Assembly (NCBI RefSeq): GCF_014904695.1
Contig: NZ_JACXXN010000014.1
Coordinates: 1 to 64,000, forward strand
DNA length: 64,000 nucleotides
Reading direction: 5' to 3'
Source of the DNA: Nostoc sp. MG11
GTDB lineage: Bacteria; Cyanobacteriota; Cyanobacteriia; Cyanobacteriales; Nostocaceae
A program made the translations under genes and the position numbers. This document shows, in pieces, positions 51,724 to 63,344 of the stretch. Under the pieces are notes generated by a model. It did not search any database, was not told the origin of the DNA, and was given only the letters and a program-made list of their open reading frames with translations. Every line of letters begins with the position of its first letter. The first letter of the stretch is position 1.

Positions 51724-53349
51724 CTAGATGCATTTGTTTGGGGTTAGCTCGACATCACGGTTCAACAACATCATCTCAAGCTGAGAAATACGGCGATTTA
51801 AAGCGCCAATGACTTCTTGCGGATCGGAAGGCTTCTGTAACCACCACTTATTTCCTGCTGTTTTCAATGTCAGATTGCGTTCTTGGGTAAATTTATTAAC
51901 AGCGACTCGAACACCAACATAATTTGGATCAGCATAATCATCCCCAAGCATCACGCCATTGGGTTTAAGTAATTCCCAATATTGAATTATGTCTGCATAT
52001 ACGTCGTCCGCTTCATGGCTAGCATCAATATAAATCAAATCAGCTTTTAAGTCTTTTTGTTGTAGCCATCGGGCAGCAATATTACTTGGCAATGGCACAG
52101 GCACAATTAAGTCATGTAGGTTGTTATACATGACATTTGCTAAAAATTGGTAGTAAAGTGTTGGCCAGCCATGCTTTCGGGACAAATTAATTAAACTAAT
52201 GGAGCATTCTCCCGATAAATACTCTATTCCTCCAAGCCAGGTATCAATGCAAATAATTGTGCCGTCAATGTGCTTCTCTTGCAAAAGCTTTGCCATGTGA
52301 ACAGCAGAAGCCCCCTTCCAAGTGCCAACTTCGATAATAATCTTGGGTTTGATTTGATCGATTAATTGACTAAATGAGGGATGGTTACTTCCCCAACCTT
52401 GCAAGTCTAGGGGATAATCGCGGTAGTTGAAATGCGCGTAGGGATTCTCTAAACCCAGCTTATCCGCAATTATTTGAGTTGAATCTTTGAATGCAGTTGC
52501 CTTACCGTTCTGTTCAAAGTCAACTAAAGAGATTTCCAAGACTGATGGTGCAGGAACAAAAGAATTGTCTTGGGCTGTGGTAGATACAGCCAGAGTATAA
52601 GCTTGAGTTAGGGATTCTTTTTCCCAAGGAAAACCTTGCGGATATTTAGTCTGCATGACAGCATTGCCTTGATGGAAAAATTCCAGTTTTACAGAAAACT
52701 TACCCATTCCTACCCGATAATTAAATGTGTAGAAACCAGTGGTATCACAGCGAGGATAGGCTTTGATCAATTCGTTGCACAGGGTAATATCTGGACTTGG
52801 AATGCCAGTTTCAGCAAATCTCACATAAAACAGGTGAGCATATTCGATAACTATTCTTTTTTTCAGAAAGTAGCAACTGGTGTCCACGTGATGATAGTCA
52901 CCTTGGAAAACTTTCCATCGACCTAAACTTTCACAATTATCATAGGTTGCGAAAGTGCCATCTGCGTTTACTATTTTTCTCAATGCATAAGCCCAATCAA
53001 GTTGCTTTTCTTCGACAAGCTGAGCTAAGGAACTAATATGATTTGGCTCAAACCAGTTATCCTCATCTAGAAAGGCTAAATAATCCCCCTTGGCTAAGAA
53101 AGGCGACATGCCATAAATACGGTGTCCATTAAACCCATCCTTACCTGTAGCGTAGGGTAAACAAAGAACATGGGTTTGAGGTTTCTTAAACTCAATTTCC
53201 TGCAAAAGTTCTTGGGTTGCAGCTTCCCGCTCTTGACCATCGATGACAATTAAATGTTCAATGTGTGGGTAATCCTGATCTTGGACGCTTTGAATCGCCT
53301 GTTTTAACAAAGGATTACCTGTTACAGGGGTGATGATAGAAACTAGCAT
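51724..53349 (-). CDS. Fusion: family 2 glycosyltransferase and SAM methyltransferase
   Basis: The 541-residue two-domain protein has an N-terminal GT-A glycosyltransferase (MLVSIITPVTGNPLLKQAI; acidic metal-binding cluster in YLAFLDEDNWFEPNH) spanning about 1-240. The C-terminal part (about 335-500) is a class I SAM methyltransferase of the Methyltransf_24 kind (IIIEVGTWKGASAVHMAKLL; IICIDTWLGG; LIYIDASHEADDVYADI; VMLGDDYAD). It probably builds a methylated glycan. ATG 53349 is chosen: GGAGGT, eight bases upstream, overlaps the stop codon of the preceding gene, so the pair is translationally linked. Confidence 0.85.
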   Translation of the reverse strand: MLVSIITPVTGNPLLKQAIQSVQDQDYPHIEHLIVIDGQEREAATQELLQEIEFKKPQTHVLCLPYATGKDGFNGHRIYGMSPFLAKGDYLAFLDEDNWFEPNHISSLAQLVEEKQLDWAYALRKIVNADGTFATYDNCESLGRWKVFQGDYHHVDTSCYFLKKRIVIEYAHLFYVRFAETGIPSPDITLCNELIKAYPRCDTTGFYTFNYRVGMGKFSVKLEFFHQGNAVMQTKYPQGFPWEKESLTQAYTLAVSTTAQDNSFVPAPSVLEISLVDFEQNGKATAFKDSTQIIADKLGLENPYAHFNYRDYPLDLQGWGSNHPSFSQLIDQIKPKIIIEVGTWKGASAVHMAKLLQEKHIDGTIICIDTWLGGIEYLSGECSISLINLSRKHGWPTLYYQFLANVMYNNLHDLIVPVPLPSNIAARWLQQKDLKADLIYIDASHEADDVYADIIQYWELLKPNGVMLGDDYADPNYVGVRVAVNKFTQERNLTLKTAGNKWWLQKPSDPQEVIGALNRRISQLEMMLLNRDVELTPNKCI

Positions 53350-53356
53350 TGTGTAA

Positions 53357-56053
53357 TTACCTCCAGGTGCGAATAGTTTGACCGCAGTCGTAAGCAATAA
53401 TGGCAAGTTGGAAAAATCTAGCTATTTCGGTAATAGCGGCTTGATTTTCGTACAACACCGAAGCTCGTTTTTGGATTTCTTGCTGAATGTGGCTACGCCA
53501 TTCCAAGTCATGCACGAGGCGATAGGCCATCTCAACATAGGATTGAGCGTCCCAAGCAACGCAATCCAGCAAGCCCATTTGTTGATAAAATCCATAAGTA
53601 AGCCGGCTACGCAAGTAATCTCCTGGCCAGGTGACAATAGGTAATCCAGCCGCAAATGCCTCTAAGGAAGTGTTACCACCTCCAAAGTGAATGGGGTCAA
53701 GCATGACATCCCCTAACATCAATAGCTGTAGATATTCTTCATAACTGAGCCGTCGCATAATGCAGATCCGGTTTGCCACATCGGGAATGGTTTCTACCCA
53801 GCGTTGGCGCAGTAGCTCATCCCAATGAGAGGAGATTCCTTCAAGCAGCACAAACCATCCCTGTGGATCACGCCGCAACAAATCTCCAATAATTTGGTCA
53901 AACTTTGGATGGAACTTAAATGAGCTTTGGGGACAGAGGTAAAGGGAACCTTCTGGAGGTAAACCAAAAGTTTCACGGCTAGCAGGAAGGGGTAGAGTTG
54001 GCTGGGTGTAATAAATTCCTGGTTGTTGCAGTCGGATCAGACGCTCGCTGTAATGATCCTGAGCATTATCAGATTCAAAAACCTCTGCTGAGAGAAAGTA
54101 ATCCATGTTGGGGATACCAGTGGTAGAAGGGTGTCCCCAAGTCATACACTGAACTGGAGCCAGTCGCGCAAAAGCCAGGAAGTAAGACAAAGGAGCCATC
54201 CCAATGTCGGTATAAAACAGCAAGTCTAGTTCCTGTTCAGCAATTTGCTGGCGAGCCTTGACTAAATTGTTTTCCAAGGAAATAACACTATCCGCATAGC
54301 TACCAATTTTTGCGGTCATAGCATCCTTAAAATCAGGCAGGCGTAGCAAAATTACTTCAAACTGGTCACGAGGTAATTTATTAAGAATGCCTCCGTAGAG
54401 TTTACCCATTGTGTGTCCCCGGAGAAATTGGGAACAAAAGCCGATCCGCGATCGCTTCTTTATCGGACGATCGCCTTTACAATGAGGAGCAACCCAGTCC
54501 AGATTTGGGCAATTATTCAGGTAAAAGCGAGCTATTGTTGCTTGCAATTGGCGATCGTTGCGACCATGATAGGCTGGGTAAAAATTTACTCCTGAAGCAA
54601 CACCAACCGGATCTCTGAGTGTGATTCCTTCACTGTCTAACGCTTGAATTTCATGAAGCAAGCGATCGCGCTCTTGATCAATTTCCTGGCAAGAACTGAG
54701 AATTATAGGCAAAGACAGGGCCCGTCGAACTCGAAGATTCGGATCGCGGCATACAGAATAGCCTCGTCGCAACACGTCTCTGCCTTCAGCAAGCTGTCCT
54801 TGAGAAATTAAAGCTTCTCCCAGGTGATAGTAAGTTTCAAACTTATCTGGCTCTAACTCCAGAGCTTGTCGCAGACTCTCAACCGCCTTATCTACTTTAT
54901 TGGTATGGATATAAATCAGACCTTGTGCATAATGTAGATTGGCACATTTAGGATATTGCTCTAGACCTCGTTGGCTACAAAACAAGGCTTCCTCTATCCG
55001 AGACTGTTGACGCAGAAGACGACACAGACAAATCCAGGCATCCTGGTCAGTTAATCCCAAATTTAGAGCTTCTTGATAGCTTGTAATAGCCTTATCTATG
55101 CAACCCGTTAGCACAAAGATATCAGCTAAATTTTTATGGGCAAGGGCATAATGAGGACGCAACTTGATTGCTTGTTCAAAGTAATCGCTAGCCTCTTGCC
55201 ATTTCATCCGCCGTTTGCAAATAATGCCCAGATTGTTAAGAGCTTCGGGAAAATCTGGTTTTAACTTTAGGGCTGTTTCTAAACACTCTGTTGCCTCTTC
55301 TAGTTGATTTTGTCGAGTTAAGATTAATCCCAAATTCCGGTAAGCCTCTGCATAGCTGGGAGCAATATCAATTGCTCGACGGTAACAAGCAATAGCTTCT
55401 TCAACTTGTCCTTGGTCTTTGTAAATATTTCCCAGATAATTATGGGCGATCGCTTCTTCTGGTGCTAGCTGAATTGCCTGTTTTAAATAGACAATAGCTT
55501 CTGCTAACATTCCCTTTGTTTTCAGGGTTGAACCTAAATGTTTGAGAGTATCAACATCATCGGGATTTAATGTTAAAGCTTGTCTGAATAGGGCAATAGC
55601 TTCATCTAGCTCCCCTTGCTGCGTCAACACTAAGCCCAAATTATTAATGGCTTCGAGATAGTTAGGGTTCAGATTCAAACCTTCTCGAAAACTGCTTATT
55701 GCTTCATCTAACTTGCCTTGCTCTCTGAGCAAAAGTCCTAAATTATTCAGAACTTCTGGAAAGTTTGGTTGCAAACGCACAGCTTGACGATAACAAGCAA
55801 TGGCCTCCTCAACCTGTCCCTGGAGGGAAAATAACACTCCTAAGTTACTGTAAGCTTCCGCGTACTCTGGGTTGATATGTAGAGCCTGCTGAAATGCACC
55901 CACCGCTTCTTGAAGTTGACTACTCAAAGCTAAAGCGGTTCCTAGTTGGAAATAAAATTCTGGTGCATTTGGGCTTTTAGTAATTTCTTCTTGAAAGTAG
56001 GCAATAGCCTCTGAGTAATGCCCTTTGGTAAGCAAAGCAGTACCGTCACTCAT
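53357..56053 (-). CDS. TPR protein with O-GlcNAc-transferase-like (SPINDLY) catalytic region
   Basis: The 898-residue protein has about 12 tandem TPR units from residue 5 to about 420 (each like AIACYRQAVRLQPNFPEVLN), then a GT41-type catalytic region: SRIGFCSQFLRGHTMGKLYG, DLLFYTDIGMAPLSYFLAFA, RLAPVQCMTWGHPSTTGIPN, LCPQSSFKFHPKFD and HFGGGNTSLEAFAAGLPIVT. Such proteins add sugars to proteins or act in surface glycan synthesis. ATG 56053 (MSDGTALL) is preferred over TTG 56098. It forms an operon with the fusion gene that follows. Confidence 0.87.
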   Translation of the reverse strand: MSDGTALLTKGHYSEAIAYFQEEITKSPNAPEFYFQLGTALALSSQLQEAVGAFQQALHINPEYAEAYSNLGVLFSLQGQVEEAIACYRQAVRLQPNFPEVLNNLGLLLREQGKLDEAISSFREGLNLNPNYLEAINNLGLVLTQQGELDEAIALFRQALTLNPDDVDTLKHLGSTLKTKGMLAEAIVYLKQAIQLAPEEAIAHNYLGNIYKDQGQVEEAIACYRRAIDIAPSYAEAYRNLGLILTRQNQLEEATECLETALKLKPDFPEALNNLGIICKRRMKWQEASDYFEQAIKLRPHYALAHKNLADIFVLTGCIDKAITSYQEALNLGLTDQDAWICLCRLLRQQSRIEEALFCSQRGLEQYPKCANLHYAQGLIYIHTNKVDKAVESLRQALELEPDKFETYYHLGEALISQGQLAEGRDVLRRGYSVCRDPNLRVRRALSLPIILSSCQEIDQERDRLLHEIQALDSEGITLRDPVGVASGVNFYPAYHGRNDRQLQATIARFYLNNCPNLDWVAPHCKGDRPIKKRSRIGFCSQFLRGHTMGKLYGGILNKLPRDQFEVILLRLPDFKDAMTAKIGSYADSVISLENNLVKARQQIAEQELDLLFYTDIGMAPLSYFLAFARLAPVQCMTWGHPSTTGIPNMDYFLSAEVFESDNAQDHYSERLIRLQQPGIYYTQPTLPLPASRETFGLPPEGSLYLCPQSSFKFHPKFDQIIGDLLRRDPQGWFVLLEGISSHWDELLRQRWVETIPDVANRICIMRRLSYEEYLQLLMLGDVMLDPIHFGGGNTSLEAFAAGLPIVTWPGDYLRSRLTYGFYQQMGLLDCVAWDAQSYVEMAYRLVHDLEWRSHIQQEIQKRASVLYENQAAITEIARFFQLAIIAYDCGQTIRTWR

Positions 56054-56098
56054 GTATCTAGCCCTAAGTTTATAAAGAAGATTAAAAACATTACGCAA

Positions 56099-56767
56099 TG
56101 TGCAACTGTTTCTAGAGCAAGCTTTTTAAAAGCGTAAGAGTTCCCTTTAGAGTTAGCTAAATGAGGATATCTCACTCAAACTAAATTGCAACAATAGCCT
56201 GATAATTTATATCTCAGGCTAATAGTTAAAGTCGTCTCAAGACGACTGGTAAGGGAATTCAGTCCACACTTTACGAACTTTCGCTATTCTCCAATCCTTT
56301 CAAGAGGATTAAACCCCATTGATGCATAGGTTGCAGTTCACTTAAGTGGACTTAAGCTATTAGCCAAGAATTAAATTTCTTGGCGGGAGATTGGGCAAGT
56401 GCAAGATTTGAATTATCCCTAACTCTCCTTAAAAAGCAGAGAACTCAAGAGAAAGTTGCGTATCGCGTAAATATTGCAAGCGTTACCTAGTACATCATCA
56501 AAGCTTAAATGTAACATCAGTACTTTTACTGAAATAAATTTACATTGTAGTTTTTCTTACACAAAATATTATGTATCAAGTAACTTACTTAAATACAGCG
56601 GTAGGATTTATTTGATTGTTATTAGTCTTATTAACTAATATATGCTCTATTTTTCTTAAAATTTTAGTACTAGCTTTCAAGCTCATATTAGAAATTATAC
56701 TTGTTAGTACTTAAAATTTATCACCAATATATTTTTGCATTAATTCAGTATTTGTACTGAAACTTCT
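56099..56767. other. Intergenic region before the secreted-protein array
   Basis: No gene is seen. Perfect palindromes include AGTCGTCT-CA-AGACGACT (56231-56248) and AATCCT...AGGATT (56292-56309). The rest is AT-rich. It lies between the promoters of the divergent glycosylation operon and the first secreted-protein gene. Confidence 0.4.
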
Positions 56768-56827
56768 ACCTAAAGTGAAAGCTATATTAAGAGCGCAAAG
56801 ATACACAATAACGAGGAGTTCGTAAAC
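56768..56827 (+). promoter_or_regulatory. Conserved promoter/leader of the secreted-protein array, copy 1
   Basis: The segment has TACTGAAAC (56754-56762), TAAAGTGAAAGCTATATTAA (56771-56790), a -10-like TATATT (56783-56788), GCAAAGATACACAA and a ribosome site GAGGAG (56813-56818). The same order recurs before the genes at 57642 and 58899, so promoter and leader were duplicated with the genes. It is absent before 59915. Confidence 0.6.
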
Positions 56828-57259
56828 ATGAAAGTATCTGCAATTCTCAAAGGAAGCGTTTGTTTGTTAGGTTTGGTTGGTGCTGGTGGTTTGTTGGCAG
56901 AGCAAGCAAATGCAGATCAAGCAGCTGCTCGTGCTTCTGCTTCTGTTACCAGACCCGGTAGTGTTACTGAAAGCCTCAGTGGTGAAGTGCTACTGCCCAC
57001 TGGTTATTATTTCAACGGTACAGGTGGCAACACTTTGACAGTTACACCTAGTTATAACAACCCAGGAACAACCAATCAATCCTTAAACGGTTTAGCTTTC
57101 AATGCTGGTACACCTGTAGCTACAAACAGCTCAGGCACAATTGCTGGTGTTGTTATCGATATGCTCCAAGGTGACAACACTGGTAACGTTAACGCTGCAA
57201 CCATTGACGATGCAGCAGCTATTATCAAAGCCGCTGCTGGCGCTGATGGTCTAGAGTAG
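56828..57259 (+). CDS. Small secreted protein, tandem family member A (unknown family)
   Basis: The 143-residue precursor has a Sec signal peptide with a hydrophobic core VCLLGLVGAGGLL and predicted cleavage after EQANA (29), giving about 114 residues. Family blocks: AARASASVTRPGSVTESLSG, EVLLPTGYYF, LTVTPSYNNPGTTNQSLNGL, a variable segment, then DDAAAIIKAAAGADGLE at the end. No cysteine or tryptophan is in the mature part and glycine, threonine and alanine are abundant, as in small beta-rich surface proteins. I do not recognise the family. Paralogues follow at 57642, 58899 and 59915. Confidence 0.75.
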   Translation: MKVSAILKGSVCLLGLVGAGGLLAEQANADQAAARASASVTRPGSVTESLSGEVLLPTGYYFNGTGGNTLTVTPSYNNPGTTNQSLNGLAFNAGTPVATNSSGTIAGVVIDMLQGDNTGNVNAATIDDAAAIIKAAAGADGLE

Positions 57260-57451
57260 ACTGGGTTTTGCACCACACAAGTTTACACACTATGAAAATC
57301 TGGGCAAAATTTCTACAAGAGGCGTAGATTAACTAAAGAAGGCAAGATTACAAATTTCAAGCTGGAATAATAGTTAATGCCTCTAGAATTCAAAAAATTG
57401 TCCGGGTTATCTACAAACTAGCAACTGCTAAATCTAGCAGTTGAGTAGGAC

Positions 57452-57498
57452 ACATGTAGGAAAGGGCAGTAGGAATACTGCATATCTTTTCTACATGT
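57452..57498 (+). ncRNA. Conserved structured RNA element in A-B spacer
   Basis: CATGTAG (57453-57459) pairs with CTACATG (57491-57497), and inner GCAGT pairs with ACTGC. The homologous spot in the next spacer (58675-58720) has compensating changes (ATATGTAG/CTACATAT; GCGT/ACGC). A second hairpin CAACTGCTA/TAGCAGTTG precedes it at 57422-57443. It could be a 3' processing or terminator structure, or part of the next gene's leader. Confidence 0.5.
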
Positions 57499-57579
57499 TT
57501 TCCACATGGCATTATCTAATACCATCTACCAAACCTACTATTTTATTCATGCAATAAATTAACTACAGTTAAAATACTG

Positions 57580-57641
57580 AGACGATTCCCAAAGTAAAGG
57601 TTATATAAGGCAAAGATACACAAAACACGAAGCTTGTAATC
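57580..57641 (+). promoter_or_regulatory. Conserved promoter/leader of the array, copy 2
   Basis: It carries ATACTGAGAC, then CCCAAAGTAAAGG, TTATATAAGG with a TATATA -10-like core, and CAAAGATACACAA ahead of ATG 57642. It is similar in order and spacing to copies 1 and 3. The ribosome site is weaker here (ACGAAG). Confidence 0.55.
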
Positions 57642-58271
57642 ATGAAAGTCTCTGCAATTATCAAAAGTATTTCTCTGTTAGGTTTGGTTGGTGCTAGTAA
57701 TTTGTTGATAGCACCCGCAAACGCAGGTCAGGGTGCTGCTCGGTCTGCTGCTTCAGTTACCAGACCCAGCGGTGTAACCGAAAGCCTCGCTGGTGAAGTG
57801 CTTACGCCTATTGGTTATTACTTTCAAGGAATACCAGCAGTTCCTACAATCCCTGCAATGCCTGCAAATCCTGGTACTAAGTTTTATGATCCCGGTACTG
57901 GTTCTACTCCTGTACCACCTGGGGCCACAACCACAATAATTGGTGGTGAAGAATTTTATCGACCTGGCTCATCCGGGCCATTTTTTCCCGTAGAGTTAGT
58001 AGGAGCATCGCCTGCAACCTCTGAAATACCTGGAATACCCGGTGCAACGTTAAAAGTTACACCCACTTACACTAACGCAGGAAAAACCAACGAATCCCTA
58101 AACGGTTTATCCTTCAATGCTGGTACGCCGACAGCAGTGAGTAGCGCAGGCACAGTTGCGGGTGTTGTTGTAGACGTACTTCAAGGTGATAATACTGGTG
58201 TTAAAGCTCCAACTATCGATGGTGCGGCAGCTGTCATCAAAACCGCTGCTGGTGCTGATGGCTTAGAATAG
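57642..58271 (+). CDS. Small secreted protein, family member B with Pro-rich insertion
   Basis: The 209-residue precursor has a signal peptide ending PANA (28). It keeps all family blocks (AARSAASVTRPSGVTESLAG, EVLTPIGYYF, LKVTPTYTNAGKTNESLNGL, AAVIKTAAGADGLE) but has about 64 extra residues between the second and third, rich in proline and glycine (VPTIPAMPANPGTKFYDPG and on to PGIPGAT). The insertion looks like an expanded loop, placed where members A and C have GTGGN or GPSGA. Upstream and downstream DNA is also homologous to that around A. Confidence 0.75.
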   Translation: MKVSAIIKSISLLGLVGASNLLIAPANAGQGAARSAASVTRPSGVTESLAGEVLTPIGYYFQGIPAVPTIPAMPANPGTKFYDPGTGSTPVPPGATTTIIGGEEFYRPGSSGPFFPVELVGASPATSEIPGIPGATLKVTPTYTNAGKTNESLNGLSFNAGTPTAVSSAGTVAGVVVDVLQGDNTGVKAPTIDGAAAVIKTAAGADGLE

Positions 58272-58390
58272 ACTGAGCTTTGCACTGCACACTTTTACGA
58301 CACCAGAAAAATCCGACAAAATTTCTATCAGAGGCGTAGATTAATTCAAGAAGGCAAGATACAGGTGTTAAGCCCAAAAAATTAAATTAT
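58272..58390. other. First part of the B-C spacer, homologous to the A-B spacer
   Basis: Bases 58272-58370 follow the sequence after gene A (AGAGGCGTAGATTAA and AAGAAGGCAAGAT are shared). Homology breaks near 58371, where an inserted repeat begins, and resumes near 58580 (AAGCTGGAAT). Confidence 0.6.
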
Positions 58391-58464
58391 GTAGGTTGGG
58401 TTGAGGAACGAAACCCAACGTTTCCAAGCCTTTGTTGGGTTTCACTCCATTCAACCCAACCTAC
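58391..58464. repeat. Miniature inverted-repeat element (GTAGGTTGGGTTGA type)
   Basis: The 74-bp unit is bounded by GTAGGTTGGGTTGA (58391-58404) and TCAACCCAACCTAC (58451-58464), with internal AAACCCAACG and TTTGTTGGGTTTC. It is a widespread cyanobacterial repeat type. It and further GTTGGGTT copies (58483-58550) form about 200 bases of insertion that splits the duplicated spacer of the secreted-protein array. Confidence 0.75.
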
Positions 58465-58674
58465 TAGCACGTCAGCCTTAAAACGTTGGGTTCAAAAAAC
58501 TATAAAATCCAAAATGAAACTATTCTATGATTACTCAACCCAACAAATTAAGCTTGTCGCGCTACTACAATTATTCTTGTTAAGCTGGAATCAGGATTAA
58601 TGCCTCTAGAGTTCAAGAAATTGTTCGGGTTATCTATATATTAGTAACTGCTAAATCTTGCAGTTGAATAAAAC

Positions 58675-58720
58675 ATATGTAGAAAAGAGCGTCAGGAATA
58701 CTACGCATTTTTCTACATAT
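58675..58720 (+). ncRNA. Conserved structured RNA element in B-C spacer
   Basis: ATATGTAG (58675-58682) pairs with CTACATAT (58713-58720), and inner GCGT pairs with ACGC. It is the homologue of the A-B spacer element at 57452-57498, differing by paired substitutions. TTTTTT follows, so it may be a terminator in this copy. Confidence 0.5.
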
Positions 58721-58825
58721 TTTTTGCATATTAATAGTTTTATTTAATACCATCTGTCTGACATCTTATCGTCCATGTACGATATATTTTTATACTACTT
58801 GCGCACCGAGAAACTTCAGTCTTAC

Positions 58826-58898
58826 CACTGAAACCACTCCCAAATACGAAGGTTATATTAAGAACACAAAGATAAACAATACGGAGAAATTGTTAATC
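58826..58898 (+). promoter_or_regulatory. Conserved promoter/leader of the array, copy 3
   Basis: CACTGAAACC, CCCAAATACGAAGG, TTATATTAAG and CACAAAGATAAACAA are arranged as in copies 1 and 2, then a ribosome site CGGAGAAA precedes ATG 58899. Confidence 0.55.
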
Positions 58899-59333
58899 AT
58901 GAAAGTATCTGCAATTCTTAAAGGTAGTATTGGTCTGTTAGGTTTGGTTGGTGCTAGTAACTTCTTAGTGGCCCCTGCAAATGCAGACCAAGCAGCTGCT
59001 CGTGCTGCTGTCTCAGTTACTAGACCTAGTTCTCTTACAGAAAGCATCAGTGGTGAGGTGCTTTTGCCTGATGGTTATTATTTCACAGGGCCATCCGGCG
59101 CAACTTTAACAGTTACACCTGTTTATACCAATCCAGGAACAACCAGTCAATCTGCAAGCAGTCTATCCTTCAATGCAGGTGGAAATGCAAGTACAGGTAC
59201 ACCAGGATCACTATCTGCTGCTGTTGTAGCTATTCTTAGAGGTGCTAATACTACCCCTGGTGTTAACGCTGTAACTATTGACGATGCATCGGCAATCATC
59301 AAAGCTGCTGCTGGCGTTGACGGTTTAGAATAA
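58899..59333 (+). CDS. Small secreted protein, family member C
   Basis: The 144-residue precursor is closest to member A: signal peptide ending PANA (29), AARAAVSVTRPSSLTESISG, EVLLPDGYYF, LTVTPVYTNPGTTSQSASSL and DDASAIIKAAAGVDGLE. The stretch before the C-terminal helix is more divergent (GGNASTGTPGSLSAAVVAIL). ATG 58899 is used; a TTG three codons earlier is not needed. A terminator at 59361-59398 follows. Role unknown. Confidence 0.75.
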   Translation: MKVSAILKGSIGLLGLVGASNFLVAPANADQAAARAAVSVTRPSSLTESISGEVLLPDGYYFTGPSGATLTVTPVYTNPGTTSQSASSLSFNAGGNASTGTPGSLSAAVVAILRGANTTPGVNAVTIDDASAIIKAAAGVDGLE

Positions 59334-59360
59334 ACTGAATTTCTATATACTTGAACAACA

Positions 59361-59398
59361 AGACTCCTAACTTTTTCGAGAAGTTGGGAGTCTGTTTT
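59361..59398 (+). terminator. Terminator after family member C
   Basis: AGACTCCTAACTTT pairs with AAGTTGGGAGTCT around CGAG, followed by GTTTTTTG. It is a strong rho-independent terminator 36 bases after the stop codon. Confidence 0.85.
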
Positions 59399-59456
59399 TT
59401 GTTCACATTAATAAACTATTATTTAGTCAAGTTTGATATTGATGGGTGAGCAAGTT

Positions 59457-59504
59457 CGTAGTAAGGACTTTAGTCCTTCTTTTAAAGCACTAAAGTCCTT
59501 ACTA
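59457..59504. repeat. Palindromic repeat GTAGTAAGGACTTTAGT type
   Basis: The 17-bp arms GTAGTAAGGACTTTAGT and ACTAAAGTCCTTACTAC are perfect complements around about 14 bases. This is a repeat type I know from many Nostocales intergenic regions. Confidence 0.7.
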
Positions 59505-59668
59505 CAAACCTTCAAAACTAGCTTGACAGACTACTACAATCACTGTCTACCTTGACTGTAGTTTATAAATCTAAAAATGGTTGTAAGCATTACGGAGAGA
59601 GAAGATTAGTATAATATTTTTATTTATTTTAAGCAATTATCATTAGCCAGATAAAAATAAATATCTAA

Positions 59669-59706
59669 AAACCCGGTTTCCTGTTCAGGAACCCGGTTTT
59701 TTTGTT
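59669..59706. repeat. AAACCCGGTTTC-type hairpin repeat
   Basis: AAAACCCGGTTTCCTG and CAGGAACCCGGTTTT form an imperfect hairpin with a following T-run (59698-59704). It resembles the common cyanobacterial AAACCCGGTTTCTT repeat and could also terminate transcripts. No gene ends nearby. Confidence 0.55.
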
Positions 59707-59914
59707 ATTGAATTACTTGAGTTTATTAAGTCATATTTAATACTACAAAAAATTTCAGTAGCGTATTACTCAAATCCTTCTTAAAAGTCATGATTATATT
59801 ACAAATACAAAACCACGCGATGTCTAACTTTAATGCTGTCATTGTGAAGTTAATAACACTTTAGAAAAAGTCGTACATCGCGTAAAACCAAAAAACATCA
59901 AGAGTTCATAAATC

Positions 59915-60367
59915 ATGAATAAACTATTTAGCCAATTATCTATAACAATCAAAGGAAGTGCCTGCCTGTTAAGCTTAGTAGGTGTGAGTAATTTCTGGGT
60001 AGCGCCAGCAAATGCGGAACAAGCTGTTGCTCGTGGTGCTGTTACAATAGTTAGACCTTCTGGTGCTTATCAAAGCTTGAGTGGTGAACTGTTCTTACCT
60101 GAAGGTATGTATTTCAACTCAGGAAGTAATCCTACTTTAATAGTTACACCTATCTTTACCAATTTAGGCACAAGTAACGAAAGTATAAAATCTCTTTCTA
60201 TTTCTGCGGGAACACCTGCAAGTACTGCAACCATTGATACTAACCCATTTGTTTCTGTAACAGGACAAACAGTGGAGGCAGTAAAAAATGTAAACGAACT
60301 TGAAGATGCAGCAGCTCTCATTCAGGCGGGTAATGGAGTTCAAGGCTTATCAGGGGCTATGGAGTAG
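59915..60367 (+). CDS. Small secreted protein, divergent family member D
   Basis: The 150-residue precursor has a longer N-terminus (MNKLFSQLSITIKGSACLLS) and a signal peptide ending PANA (34). Family blocks survive: ARGAVTIVRPSGAYQSLSGE, LFLPEGMYFNSG, LIVTPIFTNLGTSNESIKSL and EDAAALIQAGNGVQGLS, but the C-terminal KAAAGxDGLE is changed. The promoter/leader shared by A, B and C is not found upstream, so regulation probably differs. It converges on the large exported protein gene, 58 bases away. Confidence 0.7.
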   Translation: MNKLFSQLSITIKGSACLLSLVGVSNFWVAPANAEQAVARGAVTIVRPSGAYQSLSGELFLPEGMYFNSGSNPTLIVTPIFTNLGTSNESIKSLSISAGTPASTATIDTNPFVSVTGQTVEAVKNVNELEDAAALIQAGNGVQGLSGAME

Positions 60368-60425
60368 ACTAGCTACTCTATGCGATTGATCATCTACGAC
60401 ACCAGGGGCATCTATGTTAATAAAA

Positions 60426-63344
60426 TTAAAGTCGATAACCACCTTGAAGCTGAAGTTCAAATCCGCTATCACCTGTACCAATTCTGGTTTCTAGGAAAAC
60501 ATTATTGTCAGGGAAGTTATACTTTAAAATACCCCCGTAGTTGAAACCAGAAACTCTATTATTCAAACCTCTATTGCCCACACTGTAATTTTTGATATAA
60601 GTTCCAAGAGAAAAGTTTGAAATTACTCTATGTAAACCTTGTATTTCAAAGAAAGTTTCTTTACCTATCTCGAAACTTGTTTTCAAATTTAAACCACTAC
60701 TAGTACTAAACTGTCCATTAAAAAGGACTAGTAATTCTCCATTGCTATTATCTTGAACAAATGCTATGCCAGGAGCTAAAGAATAGCCAAATTTCTTCTC
60801 CTGATGTTCAAAGAAGTAGCTAAGGAAAGTAGTAAAAGGATTATTTCTACTAGAGGCGCTATTCCAGGTAATTTTCAAGAATGGTACATGATTATCAATA
60901 GCTACAGGTTTTTTTGCTGAGTCGAACTGTACATAGGTTTTAATATAGTTAAGCAAAATATTAGTATAAATACCAATAGTTGGTTCTTCTAGTCCTAGAT
61001 TATTGTTAGAAACACCTGGGGCTGAGTTTGCATCTATATTGAACCAAGTTCCTAAGTTAGCACTATAGTTAAAATCACCAGAAGAACCTGCTGTTAATAA
61101 TTCAATTGTAGGTAACAATAGCTCACCAGAAAATCCTTTAAAGCTAGTGCCTATTTTATCAACTCTGGTGAGTTCCATATAATCGAATGCTAAATCAAAT
61201 GTCCGAACGTTAAGCGGTACTACAGTATTATCGTTTGAACTAAAACTCTGTACAAATTGCCTGCCCTGAGAATCAGTTAAAATAATTTGTGCAGCAGAAG
61301 CTTCATTAATTGGGCTAATAGAAGTATTATCAAGAGGAACTGCAATTCCAGCGAAAGTCAGTGGGCCAAATTTTTCATTAGAAAGACTGAGATCAGAAAA
61401 GTAAGTATCACCTGGATCTAAAAGTTCAATATCTCTTTCTAGAAACTGAACTGCTCGTCTATGATTTCCAGTTCTCACTTGTAAAATGCTTGATTCGTTG
61501 GGATTAATTTTACTTGGTAGTGTGAAAGTTCCTGATACTTGTGCTAAACCACTAGCTGAATTGGCATAGGCTAAAGTACGATTAAGTCTTTGATTTATTT
61601 GTCGTCTTTGAAAAGGTGTTGCAGTTGTTTTTAAAGGGGCAAAACCTTCTCCATTCTCAAATTCTTGGCGTGCTTGTACTAAGCTTTGGTCAATTTGTTC
61701 GATTTGAATTGCTTCAAAAATTCCACCTAGTGCCATGCCTAATGTGGAATTAATGGTTTGCTTATAATCAATACTAACATCGTTTAAATTAGCCGTTATG
61801 GATAAACCTGGAGCAGCAAAAATATTAGAATAAGTAGCACTAATTTTTACAGAATCGTATTGAATAATACTACGATTATGGGGATAGCTGACGTAGAATC
61901 TATACCAATTAGAACTATCTTGTTCCTCAGATAGAGTTTCAGATGTGGGCGTCCTTTTTCCAAAAGATACCCAAAATAAAGAATTAAGATAATGTAAGTC
62001 TCTCTCAGTTTGAGAAAGGAAAGGATTGACTGCTATATTTAATAAATCGAAGTTATCGAATTTGCTACGTTGGGCAACTTTAATACCTGGTGCTGAAGTA
62101 ACCGGAGCCGAAAAACCAAAACCTTCTCCAGTTATAATATCTCCCCAGAAAATGCCAGCTGCTTCTAGAACGTTATTAGGGATGATTTCTCCTTCTCGAA
62201 GTCTAATATTGCCTTCATCTAGGAGAGGTTTCAAGTCAATTGTAGGAAAGCCTTGGATAATTTGGGGGGTATTGCTAGCATCTAACGCTTGGAATAAAGC
62301 TCCACCACCATCAGGACTATAAGTTGAGCCGCTACCAATAATTGGTGTACGATTTTCTAAAACTGTGACGTTAGCACTTTCCAAATCAACACCACTATTA
62401 ATCACAACCCTACCAGCAGGTACGCCTTCAGGATTAATCACCTGTCCTGCTACTGAGATTAGGGACAACTCATTATTATTAGCTTCCCCATTTAAAGCTT
62501 CAAAATCAGGAGGCAAACTGACGAGAGTTTGCAATCCCCAAAATGCTTGCGATGATGTAACATTTTGAGTGATATAAGTGTCAGTTTGTCTTCCTTGATA
62601 AAGGATACCTGCTTGCGAGCCTTTAGTATCAAATACTAGCCTATTGTTACTGGTAACCCAGTAAAACTGGTCATTTTTAGAAAAATTGGCATAAGTAAAT
62701 TTATCAATAATCTGACTATCTTGTGAATCTCTAACACTGATATTTGTATCTACATAGTTTTCGTTTTCGTTTGGCTTAAACAATTGAGCATTAAAAGTAA
62801 TATTATCTGTTGGATTAACAATCCAAGAATATCTATTAGCACTAGATGTCAGGGCATCAAGAATAATTTTTTTTTGCTTTTCTTGTTGTTGCTTTTTAGA
62901 TTGGCGTAGTTTTTGTATTAGTATCTCTTGCGTTTGTGTATATGGTCTTCTTTCATTCAAATTTGATGGTTTAGTTGTATCTGGTTCAGGCTCATCCTCA
63001 CCTTGCTCAGGTGGTTTGGGAGGTTGTACCTTAAAATCTTCAATTGGAATAACCTCAGCTATTATGAGTTTCGGTAACTGTTCTGTTTGTTGTGAATTAG
63101 ATTTAGCATTTTTTAAATGCTGTTTTAACAGTGCTTGGCTTTGAGATTTTTCTAATTCATACAATTTTTTTTCTATAGTAGAAGCTGGTTGGAAATTTTC
63201 ACCGGAATTTATAATTAAGCTAATACTGTTCTGATTGTCTAATTCTAAGGCGATCGCAAATGATTCATTCAATATAGATTTTGTTAAAATAGTAGGTAAG
63301 AGCAGCCAGAATAAAATAATTCGGATATTTATTGTAATTTTCAT
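60426..63344 (-). CDS. Large exported, beta-barrel-like protein of unknown family
   Basis: The 972-residue protein has a signal sequence (IILFWLLLPTILTKSILNES, cleaved near 33), a charged linker region (about 75-160; QPPKPPEQGEDEPEPDTTKP, then a KQQQEKQKK helix), a mixed domain (about 165-560) and a long C-terminal half (about 560-972) of alternating short beta strands with aromatic belts (FNYSANLGTWFNI; FLSYFFEHQEKKFGYSLAPG), ending FELQLQGGYRL as outer-membrane barrels do, though with Leu instead of Phe. I cannot name the family; usher-like or other outer-membrane transport is a guess. It faces the array of small secreted proteins. Confidence 0.7.
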   Translation of the reverse strand: MKITINIRIILFWLLLPTILTKSILNESFAIALELDNQNSISLIINSGENFQPASTIEKKLYELEKSQSQALLKQHLKNAKSNSQQTEQLPKLIIAEVIPIEDFKVQPPKPPEQGEDEPEPDTTKPSNLNERRPYTQTQEILIQKLRQSKKQQQEKQKKIILDALTSSANRYSWIVNPTDNITFNAQLFKPNENENYVDTNISVRDSQDSQIIDKFTYANFSKNDQFYWVTSNNRLVFDTKGSQAGILYQGRQTDTYITQNVTSSQAFWGLQTLVSLPPDFEALNGEANNNELSLISVAGQVINPEGVPAGRVVINSGVDLESANVTVLENRTPIIGSGSTYSPDGGGALFQALDASNTPQIIQGFPTIDLKPLLDEGNIRLREGEIIPNNVLEAAGIFWGDIITGEGFGFSAPVTSAPGIKVAQRSKFDNFDLLNIAVNPFLSQTERDLHYLNSLFWVSFGKRTPTSETLSEEQDSSNWYRFYVSYPHNRSIIQYDSVKISATYSNIFAAPGLSITANLNDVSIDYKQTINSTLGMALGGIFEAIQIEQIDQSLVQARQEFENGEGFAPLKTTATPFQRRQINQRLNRTLAYANSASGLAQVSGTFTLPSKINPNESSILQVRTGNHRRAVQFLERDIELLDPGDTYFSDLSLSNEKFGPLTFAGIAVPLDNTSISPINEASAAQIILTDSQGRQFVQSFSSNDNTVVPLNVRTFDLAFDYMELTRVDKIGTSFKGFSGELLLPTIELLTAGSSGDFNYSANLGTWFNIDANSAPGVSNNNLGLEEPTIGIYTNILLNYIKTYVQFDSAKKPVAIDNHVPFLKITWNSASSRNNPFTTFLSYFFEHQEKKFGYSLAPGIAFVQDNSNGELLVLFNGQFSTSSGLNLKTSFEIGKETFFEIQGLHRVISNFSLGTYIKNYSVGNRGLNNRVSGFNYGGILKYNFPDNNVFLETRIGTGDSGFELQLQGGYRL

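Follow-up and report, generated by a model that had tools for sequence, protein, structure and literature searches.

A tandem array of small secreted proteins in Nostoc sp. MG11 and its co-inherited, predicted outer-membrane barrel

A family of small secreted proteins, represented by a tandem array of four genes in Nostoc sp. MG11, and a large predicted outer-membrane beta-barrel encoded beside it very likely form a conserved two-part module. Among 388 Cyanobacteriia genomes, apparently the same draw for both searches (equal totals, same handles), the barrel was detected in 35 (about 9%) and the small family in 34, with 33 genomes having the two together; the corresponding Fisher p value of 2.6e-44 treats genomes as independent, which related genomes are not. 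This partner had been missed by the first-pass annotation, in which the array was drawn without the convergent neighbour gene at 60426-63344 on the minus strand. As the barrel partner is conserved, the reading of the array shifts from a free-standing set of matrix proteins to the probable substrates of an outer-membrane module in two parts.

Protein transport across the outer membrane and the building of the cell surface are poorly understood in cyanobacteria. If the proposed reading is true, cyanobacteria would possess one more protein export or fibre system. The barrel/subunit pair, which matches no family model, represents two genes amenable to knockout and tagging.

The four-gene array and the small-protein family

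In the window, that is, the whole stretch of 64,000 nucleotides analysed, the array and its surroundings comprise the following features.

56828-57259, plus strand: gene A, small-family protein of 143 aa with a signal peptide and the C-terminus DGLE
57642-58271, plus strand: gene B, 209 aa, with a 71-residue proline-rich insert at protein residues 63-133
58385-58470, no strand assigned: dispersed palindromic repeat in the B-C spacer
58899-59333, plus strand: gene C, 144 aa, C-terminus DGLE
59361-59402, plus strand: terminator-like hairpin after C, from a hairpin scan
59915-60367, plus strand: gene D, 150 aa, adjoining the barrel gene
60426-63344, minus strand: barrel partner gene, encoding a 972-aa predicted outer-membrane beta-barrel, convergent with D

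A to D are indeed four paralogues on one strand, and their open reading frames were found where the first-pass annotation had placed them; an in-frame TTG at 58890 lies near the start of C. Identity to A is 73% for B, 67% for C and 44% for D, and the insert of B is located between YYFQ and ATLKV. At the DNA level, repeats of 159 nt (four copies, 65-78%), 300 nt (76%) and 131 nt (81%) were detected in the array, and their length excludes a similarity by chance. By eye, all four proteins open with a signal peptide ending in ANA, in agreement with the Sec-type export that had been announced. The motifs said to be shared by the whole set hold for A, B and C, and fail for D, which has VRPSGAYQSLSGE and the C-terminus AALIQAGNGVQGLSGAME. 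Likewise, the homology described for the spacers extends over stretches that precede A, B and C and over stretches that follow A and B; the C-D spacer is the exception, no long repeat linking it to the other spacers in the repeat comparison. When the 8.4 Mb of the same genome were searched with the small family, A to D were the sole four matches.

Hairpins were observed downstream of A and B as well as C, and the region 56100-60500 contained eight of them on both strands, versus 3.1 expected in shuffles. As each of the first three genes is followed by a terminator-like hairpin, the four genes may be transcribed separately. The dispersed repeat of the B-C spacer has 29 matches in the genome, a count that includes the repeat itself and places matched on both strands, and is no part of the array function. 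Both the A-B and the B-C spacer contain the letters GGAATACT, which are similar to the hormogonium SigJ box (J-box), given as GGGaAtacT in PMC6495340, but which are located within hairpins (57450-57506 and 58670-58725).

Analysis of the family by tree reconstruction placed A and B as sisters (support 97/86), with C next, which is consistent with the proposal that the unit was duplicated twice. The A/B/C clade comprises twelve rows and was seen only in the window genome, two Komarekiella and Desmonostoc vinosum, each of which has all four orthologous groups; the single copy of another genome (G168) is the sister of this clade. D had been taken for an older copy and does belong to a separate, older lineage: the D proteins of the four array genomes cluster (100/95) with the copies lying closest to the barrel at seven other Nostocaceae loci. 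The barrel-proximal copies of further Nostoc fall elsewhere in the tree.

The dN/dS values between orthologues were 0.16-0.35 for A, 0.07-0.36 for C and 0.20-0.34 for D, and these three genes are under purifying selection. For B, values of 0.43-0.63 were obtained, and the excess could be traced to the inserted loop (0.72-1.10, versus 0.11-0.40 for the flanks), the place of which in the model of A is flanked by predicted strands. Its near-neutral evolution fits a relaxed constraint or a mild diversification. The description of the array as a diversifying set is thus not valid for the set as a whole.

The statement that the proteins match no known family was borne out, since profile searches gave no curated Pfam or NCBIfam family. 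Neither the Pfam search of 54 small proteins nor the PHROGs search yielded an assignment, and the best match by sequence among solved structures had an E value of 0.39 or worse. Scattered sub-threshold similarities were taken as chance, among them Exonuc_VII_S in three small proteins (E 0.034), and Shiga toxin A-subunit models against protein A (E about 0.02, 14-15 bits for cut-offs above 600).

The alignments show, in the N-terminal part, a strand pair A-x-A-S-G-x-V ... SVSGE-LP-G-YF followed by LTVTP and, in the C-terminal part, a helix AIIRAGAG-x-x-GL-[DE]. The model of A, of modest confidence (pLDDT 73, pTM 0.43), predicts strands and then two helices, in agreement with the alignments; a fold search with it gave no solved-structure match. 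The last residue is Asp or Glu in 106 of the 112 unique family proteins, the remaining six ending otherwise, versus 16 of 134 other open reading frames from the same stretches.

In five genomes of one family (f14), four-domain proteins of 529-544 aa are encoded (L038, L041, L042, L044 and L047), each genome having in addition a single-domain small gene. At the five third-domain junctions, the residue corresponding to the C-terminal acid is Ser or Thr. Both kinds of gene lie with the barrel gene in four of the five genomes, whereas the fifth (G133, L044) has its barrel gene on a separate contig; G184 encodes an additional protein of three domains at a second site, where no barrel gene is present (L048). 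In several of the four-domain proteins, the region of the loop enlarged in B contains cysteines.

A predicted barrel inherited with the small family

The AlphaFold2 model of the barrel, built from 36 sequences (mean pLDDT 69, pTM 0.60, 242 of the 972 residues under 50), predicts a disordered N-terminus, a beta-domain at about 195-303 and a C-terminal barrel at about 457-972 with a helical insert at 527-597. A C-terminal Phe is typical of many outer-membrane proteins; among 71 relatives of the barrel, the last residue is Phe in 64, Tyr in one and Trp in one. The predicted large C-terminal barrel and the aromatic end place the protein, by prediction, in the broad outer-membrane beta-barrel class. 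Its dN/dS is 0.15-0.19.

No Pfam or NCBIfam family and, by sequence, no solved structure was found for the barrel, and a plasmid search gave no match to it or to A. Sub-threshold similarities, such as those to citX (9e-4, one barrel) and SroA (0.0081, four barrels), were taken as chance. Foldseek retrieved generic large barrels, namely TonB receptors, ushers and LptD, 14 of them at E values of 4e-5 to 1e-3; among the 50 structure matches listed, TM-scores were below 0.4 and rmsd values 24 Å or more, so these matches show no specific kinship.

In a first order-level search with the four array proteins of the window, 17 of 243 genomes were matched and 16 of these have the barrel; in the 17th (G163), which has no barrel, the weak small-family match is broken by stops. 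A scan with the barrel alignment over one genome per species (84,980 species) detected 41 loci, all in cyanobacteria-titled records; as it rests on two short peptide patterns, distant kin would be missed.

After removal of nine duplicate stretches and of stretches without a barrel open reading frame (L044, L046, L048 and L085 among them), 72 barrel loci, encoding 72 distinct proteins, were retained. A small-family gene lies on the same stretch in 62 of them and within 1.5 kb in 61. Nine of the 72 are linked by construction (the window and eight loci obtained via the small family); for the loci found by the barrel alone, the linkage is 53 of 63. In the 62 linked loci, the nearest small gene is convergent with the barrel in 39 cases, co-directional and upstream in 18, divergent in four and co-directional downstream in one, and the upstream gene overlaps the barrel open reading frame in L134 and L137. 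One to four family open reading frames are present per linked barrel locus, besides the five four-domain proteins and the three-domain one.

In ten of the 72 loci, no small gene was detected on the stretch, four of these (L070, L117, L142 and L143) lying near contig ends. Small genes are present elsewhere in the genomes of L125 (G350), L142 (G155), L117 (G444) and L143 (G511), in the last case beside a barrel fragment on another contig. G350, where both partners are retained on the same contig with about 4 Mb between them, is the sole clear unlinked case; in G155 and G133 the partners are split between contigs, which an assembly break may explain. The small family was undetected on the stretches of L075, L084 and L086, as well as in two genomes with a barrel, G053 (L138) and G112 (L141). 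Conversely, G497 (1060 contigs) has the small family without the barrel, a repeated barrel search being negative. By eye, neighbouring open reading frames in L138 and L141 might be diverged family members. Nostoc parmelioides FACHB-3921 has two barrel genes (L084 and L086). Among laboratory Nostoc, the N. punctiforme strain NIES-2108 possesses the pair (L057).

Of 35 loci lying beyond the Nostoc synteny block, at most five share any additional neighbouring gene family. In the Nostocaceae loci several neighbours recur, in up to 24 loci, as expected from synteny. The pairing of the barrel and the small family is well supported, and the partnership rests on inheritance.

Proposed export or assembly by the barrel, and alternatives

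The nearly constant joint inheritance of the two suggests a role of the barrel in exporting or assembling the small proteins; the chance that the array is the substrate half of such a cyanobacterial two-part outer-membrane module falls, in our judgement, only a little short of even. The Sec machinery would deliver the small proteins to the periplasm, as read from their signal peptides. The adjoining barrel would recognise them, probably via their C-terminal helix and acidic last residue, and would move or assemble them at the cell surface, where their beta-domains, either single or already fused into strings, may build fibres or a coat. A surface role of the small proteins is plausible. The export/assembly reading is favoured because it best explains the variable copy number, the domain strings and the conserved acidic end. 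In a stronger form, which we put forward only tentatively, the module would be an undescribed cyanobacterial export and surface-assembly system in which a new barrel family reads the acidic tail of small beta-domain subunits and, without a chaperone, polymerises them to fibres or a coat, with fused strings in some lineages. Among the papers listed by literature searches, none on the pair was recognised, judging by titles and the openings of abstracts.

By analogy, the module might work like chaperone-usher or two-partner secretion, with no detected homology to either. For cyanobacteria, chaperone-usher pili with CccS/CccP and a Slr0019-type usher are presented in PMC4390875. Like these, the module combines several small Sec-exported subunits with one large outer-membrane barrel encoded together. 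However, the usher domain PF00577 had no Pfam match in 36 barrels and profile comparison with cyanobacterial ushers gave a probability of 0.9%, and usher kinship was rejected for the barrel; the usher family occurs in one of 16 module genomes only (G184, at a different place). The PapD-type chaperone (PF00345) was not matched in 14 of the 16 module genomes, the E. coli control being positive; in the two others (G035 and G184) it is away from the module, on another contig or megabases off. For the SCPU-type domain PF05229, none of 54 small proteins matched in Pfam and none of 16 genomes in a genome search for which the control also gave no match. Two-partner secretion (TpsA/TpsB) likewise relies on a dedicated substrate-barrel gene pair. 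Its substrates are large, whereas those proposed here are small, and the 36 barrels had no POTRA or TpsB/Omp85 Pfam match.

The small proteins could instead be periplasmic accessories of the barrel, such as a plug, lid or folding factor, and never be exported. LptD/LptE, with its large barrel, N-terminal beta-domain and small partner, shows the same layout as the present pair, and the generic barrel matches include LptD structures. Co-inheritance and adjacency would be the same in this case, and no signal beyond Sec was found. On the other hand, one to four family genes per locus and the three- and four-domain fusions are unlike a plug of fixed stoichiometry, and the near-neutral drift of the B loop also speaks against such a role. 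Furthermore, the module is restricted to 35 of 388 genomes, its partner number varies and no LptD Pfam match was obtained. We consider this alternative unlikely.

The pair could also serve uptake, with surface or released ligand-binders supplying the barrel with a nutrient in the way hemophores supply their receptors. The patchy distribution of the barrel (35/388) fits a niche nutrient, and the generic structure matches include TonB-dependent receptors. Nevertheless, this similarity is generic only, plug and receptor Pfam domains were absent from the 36 barrels at E values up to 1, and, with no third gene in more than five of the 35 distant loci, no transporter is conserved beside the pair, which makes uptake improbable. 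Finally, that the array encodes free-standing matrix or sheath proteins whose linkage to the barrel reflects an inherited locus and not function agrees with the several neighbour genes shared by Nostocaceae loci, where part of the linkage is plain synteny, but is very improbable, as the association persists in many families with different neighbours and gene orders and G350 keeps both partners unlinked.

Transferase genes beside the array

Beyond A, on the other side of the array from the barrel, two transferase genes are present.

51724-53406, minus strand: putative glycosyltransferase/methyltransferase, function assigned by eye, adjoining the next gene
53357-56098, minus strand: TPR protein with a glycosyltransferase family 41 domain (PF13844, 5e-21), a possible accessory, whose close copies were seen, among the stretches examined, beside the four-gene array only

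The two-partner system HMW1A/B has its own glycosyltransferase, HMW1C, to which the GT41 gene of the window offers a parallel. Unlike in that system, N-X-S/T sites are not in excess (24 seen, 26.0 expected), so that a link to glycosylation stays speculative. Among the stretches examined, the catalytic part of the GT41 protein is paired with the second transferase only in the four four-copy genomes; in L139, the second gene has a partial relative. A search of nine genomes gave further GT41 homologues, with identities of 26-37%. In other Nostoc loci, a ppk gene adjoins the small family in place of the transferases.
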